NCBI RefSeq assembly: GCF_000144625.1
Contig: NC_014376.1
Coordinates: 1,364,001 to 1,428,000, forward strand
Direction: 5' to 3'
Length of the DNA: 64,000 nt
Source of the DNA: [Clostridium] saccharolyticum WM1
Lineage (GTDB): Bacteria; Bacillota; Clostridia; Lachnospirales; Lachnospiraceae
The first letter of the stretch is position 1, and each line of letters begins with the position of its first letter. A program made the position numbers and the translations under genes. The notes under the pieces were generated by a model, which saw nothing but the letters and a program-made list of their open reading frames with translations, did no database searches and was not told where the DNA came from. Below are positions 22,075 through 49,898 of this stretch, in pieces.

Positions 22075-22162
22075 AATAACACTCCTTTCTTATTTCCTGC
22101 CCATATTTTCAGAGCATAAAGGTGCACCTTTAAGATGCTTCCGTGATTCATTGCTTTCTTCC

Positions 22163-31942: not shown

Positions 31943-31956
31943 AATGATATGTATAT

Positions 31957-32119
31957 AGAAGAAACACCCTGCGGGTATACCACTATGCCCAAATAGCATG
32001 GGCAATAAAGAAGAAACACCCTGCGGGTATACCACTATGCCAAAAAGCATGGGCAATAAAGAAGAAACACCCTGCGGGTATACCACTATGCCCAAAAAGC
32101 ATGGGCAATAAAGAAGAAA
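31957..32119 (+). repeat. Family 1 repeat, three tandem copies before ispF
   Basis: Three units of 52, 51 and 52 bp are nearly identical and differ only within a short A/T-run. Each has ACCC-TGC-GGGT and TGCCCA-N7-TGGGCA stems, and GGGTATA can also pair with TATGCCC. The array starts just after the lipid-kinase stop and ends in GAAAGGAAG, the ribosome binding site of ispF. The unit lengths are not multiples of three, so no continuous reading frame is conserved across units. Confidence 0.9.
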
Positions 32120-32128
32120 GGAAGAATT

Positions 32129-32671
32129 ATGAGGATTGGACAGGGATATGATGTGCATAAATTGGCGGAAGGAAGGGATTTGATTCTGGGCGGCGTAAAG
32201 ATCCCCTATGAAACGGGACTTTTGGGCCATTCTGACGCAGATGTGCTGGTCCATGCAGTCATGGATGCCCTTTTAGGTGCGGCAGCTTTGGGTGACATCG
32301 GAGAGCATTTCCCGGATACGGATCCCCAATACAAAGGCGTATCCAGTATAGAACTTTTAAAGCGAGTAGGCGAGCTTTTGGAGGAGCGGGGATATGTGAT
32401 TGAAAATATTGATGCCACTGTCATTGCTCAAAAGCCAAAGCTTCTGACCTACCGGCCGGAGATGGCAAGAAACATTGGGCAGGCGTTAAAGCTTCCAGAT
32501 GGAAAGGTCAACATAAAGGCCACAACAGAGGAAGGACTTGGCTTTACCGGAAAGGGAGAGGGGATATCCTCCCAGGCCATCGTCCTGCTTACCTCCATGG
32601 AGGATTACTGTTATGACGACAGGATCATGGAGGAAGGCTGCAAAGGCTGCTGCAAAGGCTGCGGGAAATAA
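32129..32671 (+). CDS. ispF: 2-C-methyl-D-erythritol 2,4-cyclodiphosphate synthase with Cys-rich tail
   Basis: It forms the cyclic diphosphate in the non-mevalonate isoprenoid pathway. The trimeric zinc enzyme shows [12 protein letters not shown], the metal motif [25 protein letters not shown] and the C-terminal [16 protein letters not shown]. The family core ends near residue 157 (AIVLL). This protein continues to 180 residues with a tail carrying six cysteines: MEDYCYDD, then [13 protein letters not shown]. That extension is unusual and encoded by a repetitive GGCTGC/AAAGGCTGC stretch. The start uses the ribosome binding site at the end of the repeat array. Confidence 0.95.
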
Positions 32672-32683
32672 AACAGAAAGAAT

Positions 32684-32790
32684 GACCATCGGGTATCCCT
32701 GCATGCCGGGAGTATGGGCAGTAATGAGGAAGCACCCTGGGGGTATCCCTTTGTGCCGGGAGAATATAGGCAGAAATGAGGAAAGGAAGA
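32684..32790 (+). repeat. Family 1 repeat, two copies before cysS
   Basis: Two diverged units lie 50 bp apart (GGGTATCCCT at 32691 and 32741). The second reads AAGCACCCTGGGGGTATCCC, then TTTGTGCCGGGAGAATATAGG, and ends in GAGGAAAGGAAG, the ribosome binding site of cysS. The TGCC/GGCA pairing is retained. The frame reading KHPGGIPLC runs to a TGA that overlaps the cysS ATG (ATGA). Confidence 0.8.
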
Positions 32791-32794
32791 TACT

Positions 32795-34198
32795 ATGAAA
32801 ATTTATAATACATTATCCAGACAGAAAGAAGAATTTGTCTCTTTAGAACCTGGAAAGATCAAGATGTACGTTTGCGGTCCAACGGTTTACAATCTCATAC
32901 ACATTGGAAACGCAAGACCCATCATTGTATTTGATACGGTACGGAGATATTTTGAATATAAGGGCTATGAGGTAAACTTTGTATCAAACTTTACCGATAT
33001 AGATGATAAGATTATAAAAAAGGCCATTGAAGAAGGGGTGGATGCGAACACCATTTCCAAGCGTTATATTGAGGAATGCAAAAAGGATATGGAAAGTCTG
33101 AACATAAAACCGGCCACCAAAAACCCCCTGGCAACAGAAGAAATCTGCGGTATGCTGGATATGATCGAAAAACTGATTGCCTCCGGCCATGCTTATGAAG
33201 CAGCGGATGGAACGGTCTATTTCCGCACCAAAACCTTTGGGGAGTATGGGAAGCTGTCTCATAAGAATCTGGAAGATTTACAGTCCGGCTTCCGTGAGAT
33301 CAAGGTGACCGGAGAAGACGGTAAAGAGGATCCATCGGATTTCGTCCTTTGGAAGCCGAAAAAAGAAGGAGAGCCTTACTGGGAGTCCCCATGGTGCCAG
33401 GGACGGCCGGGATGGCATATTGAGTGCTCTGTAATGTCCAAGAAATATCTTGGGGACCAGATTGACATTCATGCAGGCGGAGAAGATTTGATTTTCCCCC
33501 ATCATGAGAACGAGATTGCTCAGAGTGAAGCGGCCAATGGCAAGGAATTTGCTAAATATTGGATGCACAATGGCTTCTTAAATATTGATAATAAAAAGAT
33601 GTCCAAATCTCTTGGGAATTTTTTCACGGTCCGGGACATTGGCGAAAAGTATGATTTACAGGTGCTTCGCTTCTTTATGTTGAGTGCACATTACAGAAGC
33701 CCCATTAATTTCAGTGCCGATTTAATGGAAGCATCAAAGAACGGATTGGAAAGAATCCTGACCGCTGTGGATAAATTAAAGAGCCTGGAGGCTACTGCTA
33801 CAACAGAAAAGCTTCTGGAAGGCGAGGATAATAACTCGGTACAGGAGCTGGTTTCCAAATATGAGGCTGCCATGGATGACGATTTTAACACGGCAGATGC
33901 CATATCCGTTATTTTTGAGCTGGTAAAATTAAGCAATTCCACCGCAAACGGAGACAGCTCCCGGGAGTATGTGACCTATTTAAGAGATACCATTGAAAGA
34001 CTGTGCGAAGTTCTTGGAATCATTACGGAAAAAGAAGAAGAGATTCTGGATGACGAGATCGAAGCTATGATCGCCGGCAGGCAGCAGGCCAGAAAAGATA
34101 AGAATTTTGCCCTTGCTGATGAGATCCGCGGAAAGCTTCTGGAAAAGGGGATCGTTCTGGAGGACACCAGGGAAGGTGTAAAATGGAAGAGAGTATAA
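32795..34198 (+). CDS. cysS: Cysteinyl-tRNA synthetase
   Basis: It charges tRNA-Cys. This class I synthetase of 467 aa has the HIGH-type motif LIHIGNARP, the zinc Cys in YVCGPTVY and in HIECSVMSK with downstream His (PHHENEIAQSE), and KMSKS at about residue 268. The length is normal. No T-box leader was found; the family 1 repeat lies directly upstream. It overlaps the mrnC gene by 16 bases, forming a cysS-mrnC-rlmB operon that is conserved in Firmicutes. Confidence 0.98.
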   Translation: MKIYNTLSRQKEEFVSLEPGKIKMYVCGPTVYNLIHIGNARPIIVFDTVRRYFEYKGYEVNFVSNFTDIDDKIIKKAIEEGVDANTISKRYIEECKKDMESLNIKPATKNPLATEEICGMLDMIEKLIASGHAYEAADGTVYFRTKTFGEYGKLSHKNLEDLQSGFREIKVTGEDGKEDPSDFVLWKPKKEGEPYWESPWCQGRPGWHIECSVMSKKYLGDQIDIHAGGEDLIFPHHENEIAQSEAANGKEFAKYWMHNGFLNIDNKKMSKSLGNFFTVRDIGEKYDLQVLRFFMLSAHYRSPINFSADLMEASKNGLERILTAVDKLKSLEATATTEKLLEGEDNNSVQELVSKYEAAMDDDFNTADAISVIFELVKLSNSTANGDSSREYVTYLRDTIERLCEVLGIITEKEEEILDDEIEAMIAGRQQARKDKNFALADEIRGKLLEKGIVLEDTREGVKWKRV

Positions 34199-41613: not shown

Positions 41614-41700
41614 ATGAAAAGGCGAAGCAGATCTGTCTTTCGGCCTTTCAGTTGTGGATCAACTGGATATGCAAGCATATCCCTTTGATTTCTTCGTACA
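41614..41700 (+). repeat. Family 2 repeat, single diverged copy before the PBP gene
   Basis: ATCAACTGGATATGC-AA-GCATATCC at about 41658-41682 and the following TTGATTTCTT match the tandem repeat at 47682-48053. Upstream, AAAGGC and GCCTTT form the counterpart of its other hairpin, with changes on both arms. The open frame from ATG 41614 ends in STGYASISL at TGA 41688, like the STGYAGISA mini-ORF of the array, but has no ribosome binding site. Confidence 0.75.
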
Positions 41701-41729
41701 CAAAAATGATGAAAAGGAGGCAAATTGAT

Positions 41730-46104: not shown

Positions 46105-47565
46105 ATGAGCAAAATAAGAACAAGATACGCACCGAGCCCTACAGGCCGTATGCATGTAGGGAACTTAAGAACTGCATTATATGCTTACCTGATTGCAAAA
46201 CACGAAGGCGGCGATTTCCTTCTGCGCATCGAGGATACGGATCAGGAGCGTTTTGTGGAAGGTGCTGTCGAGATTATTTATAGAACCTTAAAAGAAACAG
46301 GGCTTAACCATGACGAAGGTCCGGACAAGGATGGCGGCGTAGGTCCTTATGTACAGAGTGAGCGACAGGCCTCCGGCATTTATCTGGAATATGCGAAAAA
46401 GCTGGTGGAAAAAGGAGAGGCTTATTACTGCTTCTGTTCCCAGGAAAGACTGGATTCCCTTAAAAAAACTGTGGAAGGCCAGGAGATCATGACTTATGAC
46501 AAGCACTGCCTTCATCTTTCCAGAGAAGAGGTAGAAGCCAATCTGGCGGCAGGAATGCCTTATGTCATCCGCCAGAACAATCCTACCGAAGGAACCACTG
46601 CCTTTCATGATGAGATATACGGGGACATCTCCGTGGACAACTCGGAGCTTGATGATATGGTTCTGATCAAATCCGACGGATTCCCCACTTATAATTTTGC
46701 AAACGTGGTGGATGATCATCTTATGGGGATAACCCACGTAGTACGGGGGAACGAATATTTATCTTCCTCACCCAAGTACAACCGCCTTTATCACGCCTTT
46801 GGCTGGGAGGTTCCGGTATATGTTCATTGTCCGCTGATCACCAATGAAGAGCACAAGAAGCTGAGCAAGAGAAGCGGCCATTCCTCCTATGAGGACCTGA
46901 TCCTGCAGGGCTTTATTTCCCAGGCTGTTGTGAATTATGTGGCTCTTTTAGGCTGGTCCCCTGTAGGCAACCAGGAGATCTTCTCTCTGGATGAACTGAT
47001 AAAGGAGTTTGACTATCACAATATCAGCAAATCCCCGGCTGTTTTTGACATGACAAAGCTGCGCTGGATGAACGGCGAATATATGAAAGCCATGGACTTT
47101 GACCAGTTTTATGAACTGGCTGAGCCTTATTTAAAGGATGTGATCAAGAAGGATCTGGATTTAAAGAAGATCGCTGCCATGGTAAAGACAAGGATCGAGG
47201 TATTTCCGGATATAGCAGATCACATTGACTTTTTTGAGACTCTGCCGGAATACGATACTGCCATGTACACCAATAAGAAAATGAAGACTGGCATCGAAAG
47301 TTCCCTTGGCTTACTGCAGGATGTGATTCCCATCCTGGAAGCCCAGGAGGATTACAGCAATGATGCTTTGTACGAGACACTTTCAAAATATGTTTCCGAA
47401 AAGGGGTATAAAACCGGATTTGTTATGTGGCCCATTCGTACAGCGGTTTCCGGTAAGCAGATGACACCGGCAGGAGCTACTGAGATTATGGAAGTCCTGG
47501 GTAAGGAAGAATCCCTCATAAGAATAAGAAAGGGAATCCAGCTTTTAAGCAATGGGGCTCAATAG
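46105..47565 (+). CDS. gltX: Glutamyl-tRNA synthetase
   Basis: This class I synthetase of 486 aa charges tRNA-Glu. It has [21 protein letters not shown] (HIGH motif), the [14 protein letters not shown] segment and KKLSKRSG as its KMSKS loop. The length is normal for a bacterial GluRS. The start is behind AGGAGTG. A terminator follows, so it is a single-gene unit. Confidence 0.97.
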
Positions 47566-47580
47566 GTTATAATAATAGAA

Positions 47581-47615
47581 GCAGAGGCTCCGGCTTTGAC
47601 CGGACCCCTGCTTTT
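47581..47615 (+). terminator. Terminator after gltX
   Basis: GCAG-A-GG-C-TCCGG pairs with CCGGA-CC-CC-TGC (imperfect), followed by TTTTCTT. Confidence 0.7.
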
Positions 47616-47681: not shown

Positions 47682-48053
47682 TATGAGCATATCCGCTTGA
47701 TTCCTTGGGAGGCCAAGGTTGAAAGTAAGCGTCTTTCAACCTTAAGTTGTGAATCAACTGGATATGCAGGCATATCCGCTTGATTTCTTAGGAGACCAAG
47801 GTTGAAAGAAAAGCGTCTTTCAACCTTAAGTTATGAATCAACTGGATATGCAGGCATATCCGCTTGATTTCTTAGGAGACCAAGGTTGAAAGAAAAGCGT
47901 CTTTCAACCTTAAGTTATAAATCAACTGGATATGCAGGCATATCCGCTTGATTCTTTGGGAGACCAAGGTTGAAAGAAAAGCGTCTTTCAACCTTAAGTT
48001 ATGAATCAACTGGATATGCAGGCATATCCGCTTGATTCTTTGGGAGACAAATT
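47682..48053 (+). repeat. Family 2 repeat array, four tandem 83-84 bp units before the helicase gene
   Basis: Repeat boundaries CCAAGG fall at 47713, 47796, 47880 and 47964; a partial unit precedes and another (ACAAATTATGAAAG) runs into the helicase start. Each unit has an 11-bp perfect stem, AAGGTTGAAAG with CTTTCAACCTT, and a second stem, GGATATGC-AG-GCATATCC extended by AATCAA/TTGATT. Each unit carries a GGAG ribosome-binding-like site followed by TTG. The units are nearly identical, which suggests recent duplication or gene conversion. There are no unique spacers, so it is not a CRISPR array. Confidence 0.95.
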
Positions 48054-49898
48054 ATGAAAGAACGGGTTATATATGAGGGGGCGCAGAAGGAAGCGATCCT
48101 TCATCATCAGGGTCCCATGCTGGTCCTTGCCGGGCCGGGTTCAGGAAAGACCTTTACCATCACTCACCGGATATGCCACTTGATTAAAGAATACGGCGTG
48201 GACCCATCAAATATTTTGGTTATTACATTTACCAAGGCGGCTGCCAGGGAGATGAAGGAGCGCTTTGAGAGCCTTGTGGACGGCAGGCCGTCCGGGGTCA
48301 GCTTTGGAACCTTTCATGCCATATTTTTCCGTATCCTTAAATTTGCTTACCGGTATGATGCCGGCAGCATTGTGAGAGACGAGCAGAAGATCCGATACAT
48401 AAAAGAGGCCATGGATAAGTTCCAGGTGGAGGTGGAGGATGAGGCGGAATTCGTAACCTCCATCCTGTCGGAAATCAGCTCTGTAAAGGGGGATATGATC
48501 GACTTAAGCCATTATTATTCAAAAAACTGCTCGGAAGAAATATTTAAGCAGCTTTATCTGGAGTATGAAAACCGGCTTCGGAAGGCCAATCTCATTGACT
48601 TTGACGATATGATGGTGATGTGCTATGAATTATTTGTCCAGAGAAAAGACATTCTGGAAGCGTGGCAGAAAAAGTACCGGTACATCCTGGTGGATGAATT
48701 TCAGGATATCAACCGGGTGCAGTACGAAATCGTCCGGATGCTGGCAGCTCCGGAAAATAATCTGTTCATCGTAGGGGATGACGACCAGTCCATCTACCGT
48801 TTCCGGGGGGCAAAGCCGGAAATCATGCTGGGCTTTGAAAAGGATTATCCGGGGGCCAAAAAGGTTCTTTTAAATATAAATTTCAGGAGTACAAAAGAAA
48901 TTGTGGAGGCGGCGGGAAAGCTGATTGCCCATAATGAAATGCGCTTTCCCAAAAGGATCATTACGAAAAAAGGGACTGGAAAACCGGTGATCACAAGAGT
49001 ATGGCAGGATCCACAGGAGGAGACACTGGAAATTGTCCGGGAAATCATGGCTTATGCCAAGGCGGGATTTGACTGGCCGGATATGGCAGTCCTGTTCAGG
49101 ACAAATTTAGGCCCCAGACTGCTGATTGAAAAGCTTATGGAATTTAACATCCCTTTCTCCATGAAGGATTCTGTGCCCAATCTATACGATCATTGGATCG
49201 CAAAAAATATAATTTCTTATATCCATGTGGCCTCCGGGGATCTGACCAGAGCCAATGTGCTCCAGATCCTCAACCGGCCCAACCGTTACGTCAGCCGGGA
49301 TGCCGTCGAAACCAGTCCTGTGAGCTGGGAGGGGATAAAATCCTTTTACCAGGATAAGGGCTGGATGGTAGAAAGAATCGAGCAGCTGGAGTATGATTTG
49401 AAAATGATCAGGAATATGGCTCCGGTAGCCGCTGTAAACTATATCAGAAAGGCGGTGGGGTATGACGACTACATCAGGGAGTACGCCCAATACCGGAGGA
49501 TGAAGCCGGAGGAGCTATTGGAGGTATTAGACCAGCTTCAGGAAAGTGCAGCCGGTTATCTCACTTCGGAGGAATGGTTCCGCCATATGAAGGACTATGG
49601 GGAGGAGTTAAAAGCTCAGGCCCAGTCAGGAGAAGGAAGAGCCAGGGGGGTGGCCCTTATGACCATGCACAGTGCCAAAGGCCTGGAATACCGGATCGTC
49701 TATATTTTAGATGCCAATGAAGGCGTAACTCCTCACCATAAGGCAGTGCTTCCGGCAGATATGGAGGAGGAGAGGCGCATGTTTTATGTGGCAATGACAA
49801 GGCCGAAGGAAAGGCTTCATGTGAATTATGTACGGGAGAGGTACAGCAAAAAACAGGAGGTCTCCCGTTTTGTCCGGGAATATCTGGGACGGGAATAA
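48054..49898 (+). CDS. UvrD/PcrA-like superfamily 1 DNA helicase
   Basis: This ATP-dependent 3'-5' helicase of 614 aa is shorter than PcrA/UvrD (about 730). Motifs are AGPGSGKTFTITHRI (Walker A), FTKAAAREMKER (Ia), VDEFQDINRVQYE (II), VGDDDQSIYRFRGA (III), NINFRSTKEI (IV), TMHSAKGLEYRIVYI (V) and FYVAMTRPKERLHV (VI). The ribosome binding site GGGAG (48042-48046) and the ATG lie within the last partial unit of the family 2 repeat. It probably acts in repair or in removing blocks to replication. It is not in an obvious operon. Confidence 0.93.
   Translation: MKERVIYEGAQKEAILHHQGPMLVLAGPGSGKTFTITHRICHLIKEYGVDPSNILVITFTKAAAREMKERFESLVDGRPSGVSFGTFHAIFFRILKFAYRYDAGSIVRDEQKIRYIKEAMDKFQVEVEDEAEFVTSILSEISSVKGDMIDLSHYYSKNCSEEIFKQLYLEYENRLRKANLIDFDDMMVMCYELFVQRKDILEAWQKKYRYILVDEFQDINRVQYEIVRMLAAPENNLFIVGDDDQSIYRFRGAKPEIMLGFEKDYPGAKKVLLNINFRSTKEIVEAAGKLIAHNEMRFPKRIITKKGTGKPVITRVWQDPQEETLEIVREIMAYAKAGFDWPDMAVLFRTNLGPRLLIEKLMEFNIPFSMKDSVPNLYDHWIAKNIISYIHVASGDLTRANVLQILNRPNRYVSRDAVETSPVSWEGIKSFYQDKGWMVERIEQLEYDLKMIRNMAPVAAVNYIRKAVGYDDYIREYAQYRRMKPEELLEVLDQLQESAAGYLTSEEWFRHMKDYGEELKAQAQSGEGRARGVALMTMHSAKGLEYRIVYILDANEGVTPHHKAVLPADMEEERRMFYVAMTRPKERLHVNYVRERYSKKQEVSRFVREYLGRE

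Follow-up and report, generated by a model that had tools for sequence, protein, structure and literature searches.

The tandem repeat array between gltX and a UvrD/PcrA-type helicase gene of [Clostridium] saccharolyticum WM1, an anaerobe of soil and gut type, probably consists of piled-up copies of a small mobile element that is non-autonomous, measures ~85-92 bp and is built of a first hairpin, a second hairpin and a tail (probability roughly 0.7). The unit belongs to a dispersed family with empty orthologous sites, a location at start codons, a tail that carries a Shine-Dalgarno (SD) motif, covarying hairpins and local expansion. The most economical account is that of a mobile hairpin element with an SD as its end motif by chance, for which insertion between an SD and its ATG would do almost no harm. 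The array was studied within a window of 64,000 nucleotides (contig NC_014376.1, positions 1,364,001 to 1,428,000), to which the coordinates below refer unless the genome is named.

The array consists of four units of 83-84 bp and a 5'-truncated copy (47687-48053), and its 3' end abuts the ATG (48054) of the helicase gene (48054-49898, + strand; best NCBIfam match PcrA, below its cut-off). Tandem Repeats Finder (TRF) placed it at 47687-48062 with a period of 84, 4.5 copies and 94% matches, direct repeats are spaced 84/84/84, and every full unit contains hairpin 1 (AAGGTTGAAAG/CTTTCAACCTT) and hairpin 2 (GAATCAA-CT-GGATATG..CATATCC-GC-TTGATTC) and is closed by the purine tail GGAGAC. These results bear out the tandem array of near-identical double-hairpin units described in an earlier note on this DNA; the units do not, as that note had it, fill the whole space between the two genes, since gltX (46105-47565, + strand) ends at 47565 and the array begins at ~47687. 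The folding of the array is far more stable than that of shuffled sequence (z = -11.3; 0 of 100 shuffles equally stable).

All parts of the array lie on the + strand. The truncated first copy (47687-47714), recognised from its sequence within the TRF array, comprises the 3' arm of hairpin 2 and a tail, GGGAGGC. It is followed by unit 1 (47715-47797; 82.1 bits at 47715-47796 with R1, a covariance model built from 16 copies), unit 2 (47798-47881; 87.2 bits at 47798-47880), unit 3 (47882-47965; 83.2 bits at 47882-47964) and unit 4, which runs up to the helicase ATG (47966-48053; 104.6 bits at 47966-48056). In unit 4, hairpin 1 spans 47966-47995 as a 12-bp inverted repeat with a 6-nt loop, hairpin 2 spans 48003-48038 as a palindrome also matched on the other strand, and the final tail leads into the ATG as GGGAGACAAATTATG, with the element-borne helicase SD, GGGAG (48042-48046), separated from the ATG by a 7-nt spacer. 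Because the unit register, common with the dispersed copies, runs from AAGGTTG at the start to GGAGAC at the end, it is the last complete unit whose tail forms this SD, and the copy that is only partial stands at the 5' end of the array. The element thus does supply the ribosome-binding site of the helicase, as had been proposed, but from a complete unit and not from a last partial one.

Past gltX, a GC-rich inverted repeat followed by a T-run (47577-47615) is similar in relatives; by eye it looks like a candidate gltX terminator, and the helicase may therefore have its own promoter. A sigma-70 promoter scan of the array region found none, with 1.1 expected in shuffles. Terminator-like matches in the array region fell mostly on hairpin 2, with its TTGATT arm as the T-run, and were not read as terminators. 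When the window and the two array regions (the second is introduced below) were scanned with Rfam, only tRNAs reached the gathering score and other matches stayed far below it; the best match in the array was to a microRNA family (E 0.019, 25.5 bits against a gathering score of 90).

The unit is dispersed over the genome. A BLAST search with a single unit returned 22 matches in the own genome, five of them inside the helicase array. With R1 at E<=0.001 the own genome gave at least 41 matches, which correspond to at least 35 sense copies at at least 29 sites after removal of 6 antisense echoes; these counts are lower bounds from the best 150 of 2345 candidates (in other genomes, the best 150 at most), and 49 of 85 rows were taken further, antisense echoes and two weak rows being left out. 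Four-unit arrays occur at two sites, that of the helicase and that of a glycosyltransferase-like gene (genome positions 4105734-4106083). A further site in the window (41618-41709, + strand; R1 79.6 bits) precedes a penicillin-binding-protein-1A-like gene (just below the family cut-off), whose own SD comes after the element.

R1 matches were found in 8 of 16 Lacrimispora genomes, the own genome counted, and 80 regions were taken from among the matches listed in the relatives. What sets the eight carriers apart is a helicase of at least 87% identity to the own protein, against at most 82% in the 17 other genomes. An R1 search of 8 of 17 more distant Lacrimispora genomes gave no match, nor did R2 under strict filters in the more distant Lacrimispora genome G031. 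At least one copy lies outside the carrier clade, in another more distant Lacrimispora (G028), before the same gene as a clade-wide site. Nine of 250 Lachnospiraceae genomes, the own included, had matches at E<=1e-4, and eight other genera carry 17 copies in which the architecture is kept and the hairpin 2 stem is mostly different; that of the G160 copy is close to the Lacrimispora type. Across 391 Clostridia genomes, strict filters returned matches only in the own genome and in one genome of another family of the order, where the copy stands before an ORF that, by eye, resembles IspG. One exact pattern searched against genome contigs, a spot check and no census in which records near the window's own were left out, hit a single record (Lacrimispora celerecrescens 152B). 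The same kind of search of viral contigs with one exact pattern found none, and blastn against plasmid and phage collections gave no match. Term searches of the open-licence PMC literature found no description of this family.

A genome-wide search with distances to start codons, proposed in the earlier note, found the copies strongly biased towards start codons. A sense ORF of at least 90 codons starts between -12 and +90 nt from the element end at 52 of 59 sites, and between -12 and +3 nt at 33 of them; an ORF of that length on the other side and strand was found at 10 of the 59 site families. This count covers 59 of 66 sites, seven weak or hairpin-only own-genome matches having been dropped by hand. 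The downstream genes are diverse (e.g. recR, ruvX, secE, parA, mnmE and rnhB, read from N-termini without a family search), and at this level of reading they form no coherent set of the kind that marks a cis-regulatory RNA or riboswitch.

Two kinds of tail can be distinguished, an SD-bearing a-type (AGGAGRC) and a GTATAC-like b-type, and the commoner tail (ATTAGGAGACAAATTATG) constitutes a correctly spaced SD of its own. Among the 42 site clusters (of 65) in which the 5' end could be recognised, an SD-like motif occurs in the 14 nt before the element at 15 of 25 a-type sites against a background of 17%, and at 2 of 17 b-type sites, which is at background. Copies from other genera have such a motif before the element in 12 of 17 cases (background 11%), and a tail SD in 11 of 17 by eye (13 of 17 by script, where the match in L369 and L370 lies in a hairpin).

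Comparison with close relatives indicates insertion: many sites lack the element there and show the native leader (13 analysable loci). Three pairs illustrate this, with slashes at the junctions: native GAAGGGTGAT/AAAATATG against filled GAAGGGTGAC/AAGGTTG..ATTAGGAGAC/AAAATATG; native CCAGGAGGAA/TAGATAATG against filled CCAGGAGAAAA/GAGGTTG..ATTAGGAGGC/AAATAATG; and native GAGAGGT/AATGCATG against filled GAGAGGC/AAGGTTG..ATTAGGAGGC/AATGAATG. When the right-most near-best breakpoint was taken, 9 of the 13 native sites had an SD-like motif within 14 nt to the left together with an ATG within 14 nt to the right, compared with 6.2% of positions in the same sequences (ATG window 16 nt). First-best breakpoints gave an SD in 7 of 13 and an ATG in 10 of 13, in a run that used another empty allele for one site. 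With flanks rich in purines or in A on either side, the near-best breakpoints of a site extend over 3-19 positions. The 13 loci were drawn from 15, S5 and S6 being dropped as not alignable or composite, and S12 and S14 were not included. Four of the 13 do not fit or cannot be placed: S4 and S7 are poorly placed, and S11 and S13 lie in leaders without SD/ATG context.

Two insertions are informative for their position. L073 in G001 entered at a fortuitous GGAGG..CATGG within a reading frame that all 4 of the 4 empty alleles examined keep open, and at site S2 the element entered at an ATG other than the predicted start. Target duplication was not significant by permutation on 36 of the 42 site clusters (p=0.18 for 17 a-type sites, 0.67 for 19 b-type sites); the breakpoints are ambiguous, and a short target duplication may occur, L080 and L095 having the look of one. 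The helicase leader itself exists in several states among the other seven carriers: G002, G006, G008, G013 and G014 have a short native GGAGG..ATG, G001 has a possible remnant of the element, and in G009 only TTGATTCATTAGGAGGGAAAATT, the tail of a decayed copy, is left as the helicase SD before the ATG. Similarly, 4 of 8 orthologues at site S8 have a decayed copy in which most of hairpin 1 is gone and the SD tail is kept.

Taken as a mechanism, the element would insert mostly between an SD and its ATG. In the commoner form, the tail would end with an SD-like motif a few nucleotides before the junction and the start codon would regain an SD at the usual distance, so that the insertion would be close to neutral and could be kept. 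The recreated SD would in turn offer a new target, a later copy could enter behind the SD of an older one, and the units could then be multiplied in place by ordinary tandem duplication. The start-codon bias and the covarying stems support a mobile palindromic element settled in a 5' UTR, which was one of the explanations offered in the earlier note.

The two arrays are consistent with such growth. Over their first 80 nt, the four helicase units agree with each other at 91-99% and with the units of the other four-copy array at 78-82%, in line with the recent expansion suspected at the outset. In the array of the glycosyltransferase-like gene, the three upstream units are 94-99% alike and the ATG-proximal unit is only 84-85% like them; the same site holds a single copy in G002, G009 and G008. 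Both arrays open with a 5'-truncated copy, and their units join in the same phase (GGAGAC or a close variant, then a single base, then AAGG). From these sequences we infer that each array may have arisen when a later copy landed behind the SD of an earlier one and units were then duplicated locally.

The hairpins covary, as the covariance analysis of aligned copies revealed. In a cross-genus alignment, 16 of 25 pairs change on both sides against 8.1 in shuffles, and 79 cells were counted against 23.5 +/- 4.0 (0 of 500 shuffles as high), with slid controls at 3-6 pairs; this alignment of 29 rows, one of them antisense (L105), was fitted to the model and so leans to structure. The first 16 copies alone gave weak covariation (4 pairs; 53 of 500 shuffles as high). 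G-U outnumber A-C mismatches both overall (145 against 82; 120 of 135 elements used) and as changes within orthologous sets (43 against 23, p=0.019; 17 clusters of at least 3 genomes each), and paired columns vary less than unpaired ones (0.12 against 0.41 changed states per column, 17 clusters), figures that are limited by the escape from the model of copies that lost the fold.

Conservation after insertion was assessed on the 17 clusters with at least 3 genomes that were also used for base-pair changes; the ORF is doubtful in three of them (protein identity <=0.30). Element identity lies within 0.05 of third-codon-position identity in 12 of these 17 orthologous sets and 0.09-0.16 above it in five, two of which rest on a misassigned ORF (protein identity <=0.30). 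The clearest two sets reach 0.96 against 0.80 and 0.88 against 0.76. At genome sites 4356532 and 195148 the element is higher than third codon positions in 21 of 21 genome pairs each, and judging from these sequences the copies may have been put to use. The copy at 4356532-4356623, with its counterparts L076, L077, L078, L082, L083 and L087, is almost unchanged in 7 genomes, and the ORF downstream of it appears to start with TTG.

Occlusion or exposure of the SD by the hairpins had no clear effect in folding predictions: the mean probability of being unpaired was 0.54 against 0.48 with shuffled upstream sequence, and higher at 17 of 28 sites. For the last helicase SD, the predicted probability of being unpaired was 0.70-0.81 and showed no trend as upstream units were added. 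These predictions, together with downstream genes that look unrelated and near-background conservation in most orthologous sets, do not support the copy-number-dependent translational control by the array that the earlier note had considered.

It is unlikely that the family is instead a conserved cis-regulatory RNA serving a regulon, in which a factor binds the double hairpin of the 5' leader and so controls how the following gene is translated. Sense orientation, start-codon position, strong covariation across genera, the G-U excess, the low variation of paired columns and the two sites much more conserved than third codon positions would all suit such an RNA. The downstream genes are unrelated, however, close relatives have empty sites, 12 of 17 orthologous sets are no more conserved than third codon positions, and the decayed S8 copies (4 of 8 orthologues) lost most of hairpin 1 and kept the SD tail. 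The structural signals are also less specific than they appear: covariation and a G-U excess would be expected as well if transposition needs a folded single strand, C-to-T bias could add to the excess, and copies that lost the fold escape the model.

The insertion sites bear on two other alternatives. An ordinary small interspersed repeat without target preference, whose apparent SD/ATG preference reflects survivors with translation intact, would account for the leader insertions upstream of the native SD (S11, S13 and many b-type copies), but the gap between SD and ATG should be among the most damaging places to insert, and the SD and ATG context of 9 of 13 native sites, including L073 inside a reading frame and S2 at an ATG that is not the predicted start, makes this quite improbable. 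It is hardly credible that the array is a tandem duplication of the native leader unrelated to mobility: its units are 91-99% identical, as a duplication would leave them, but further copies of the unit are scattered over the own genome, and the helicase leader is short and native in five carriers, a decayed tail in G009 and a possible remnant in G001.

For the mobile hairpin element, the closest known parallel is IS200/IS605. According to the accessible part of PMC5934647, these elements leave the target motif in the left flank and have the cleavage motif at the 3' end. Relative to that part of the source, IS608 and its deletion derivatives share with the present element hairpins near the ends and a 3'-end motif, and may share with it a left-flank target motif and insertion without target duplication; here, hairpins lie at or near both ends on one strand. 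By analogy, the end logic resembles the single-strand 'peel-and-paste' type. Unlike IS200/IS605, the target context would be SD-like and not TTAC, the flank is purine-rich with no fixed tetranucleotide, and hairpin 1 begins right at the boundary, which leaves no separate guide tetranucleotide 5' of it. The search for a Y1 transposase that shares these ends found none, the best R1 match in 30 transposase loci having E 0.096, and the element is for this reason not filed under IS200/IS605. PF01797 (Y1) matches occur in 15 of 17 genomes, with none in carriers G009 and G014 and some in non-carriers, and the presence of an IS200-type transposase did not correlate with element copy number. The family would be moved by an enzyme, and an extinct or unsampled Y1 transposase is a possible partner. 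In the own genome, an IS200-type element of ~780 bp occurs in several almost identical copies (1321551, 1798465 and 3359632), the ends of which have no R1 match.

REP/BIME sequences moved by TnpA-REP (RAYT) are likewise short, palindromic, dispersed and often intergenic. Their defining mark in the accessible parts of PMC8266576 and PMC3733652 is a GTAG or CGTC tag; by that description they differ from the present family, in which neither tag lies beside the palindromes (alignment and left-flank profile) and two different hairpins stand in fixed order. The MITE-like Correia/NEMIS, ERIC, RUP and BOX repeats are also small, mobile, able to enter transcribed regions and to fold. The present element differs from classical MITEs in having no terminal inverted repeats (ends AAGGTTG.. 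and ..AGGAGAC, by eye), and its start-codon bias differs from the over-representation of BOX and RUP between convergent genes given in the portion of PMC3049150 available. A 2024 review of prokaryotic MITEs (PMC10969869) uses none of the terms 'Shine', 'ribosome binding' and 'start codon' in its main text, as available. Riboswitches and other Rfam leaders share the structured 5' leader before an SD, but no Rfam family except tRNA reached its gathering score in the window.

A second, unrelated repeat family has a 52-bp unit of two short hairpins and a purine tail and lies directly before start codons. In the window, three tandem units (31963-32124, + strand; TRF array 31953-32119) precede an ispF-like ATG at 32129, and a copy at 32731-32789 (+ strand; R3 65.0 bits) precedes a cysS-like ATG at 32795, both gene names being assigned by eye; a degenerate unit seems to precede the latter (region 32690-32789). 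Another copy (106-164, + strand; R3 71.7 bits) runs into the ATGATG start of an ORF, and one on the - strand (22081-22139; R3 44.1 bits) ends 6 nt 5' of an ATG on that strand. Elsewhere, the own genome has four units in tandem before a permease-like gene. At the L095 site, relatives carry one unit between the native GGAGG-type SD and GAACCATG, and the own genome and more distant relatives have GGAGG..ATG without the unit. The few copies compared gave a mixed covariation result, with cells above the shuffles (17 against 7.1 +/- 1.7; 0 of 500 as high) and pairs level with them (3 against 3.0).

The two families raise a broader reading, which we hold only tentatively: a class of elements that targets the translation-initiation region, enters the gap between SD and ATG, provides a replacement SD with its 3' end and so rebuilds both the start signal and its own target. 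At least two unrelated families of this kind (~85-92 bp and 52 bp, both tandem-forming) would then coexist in Lacrimispora, the first being thinly spread over Lachnospiraceae, and targeting might use single-stranded DNA or even mRNA during initiation. If this is true, a mobile repeat can enter the few bases where a gene is most sensitive, since it brings a substitute for the signal that it pushes apart from the start codon. Alleles of one start site that are empty, filled, decayed or expanded to an array would serve as natural experiments on how leaders tolerate insertions, genes would have a route to new ribosome-binding sites, and two unrelated repeat families of the same design in one genome would suggest a general rule and not an oddity.

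Some copies of the first family depart from the common architecture. An additional GC-rich hairpin (like GTGCCCCGCTTTACCGGGCATC) is inserted into the 5' arm of hairpin 2 in a variant observed in L067, L115, L084:768-883, L098:768-883 and L145:2210-2325, and at genome positions 3296829-3296866 and 380447-380480 the hairpin 2 core lies within other long palindromes without hairpin 1.
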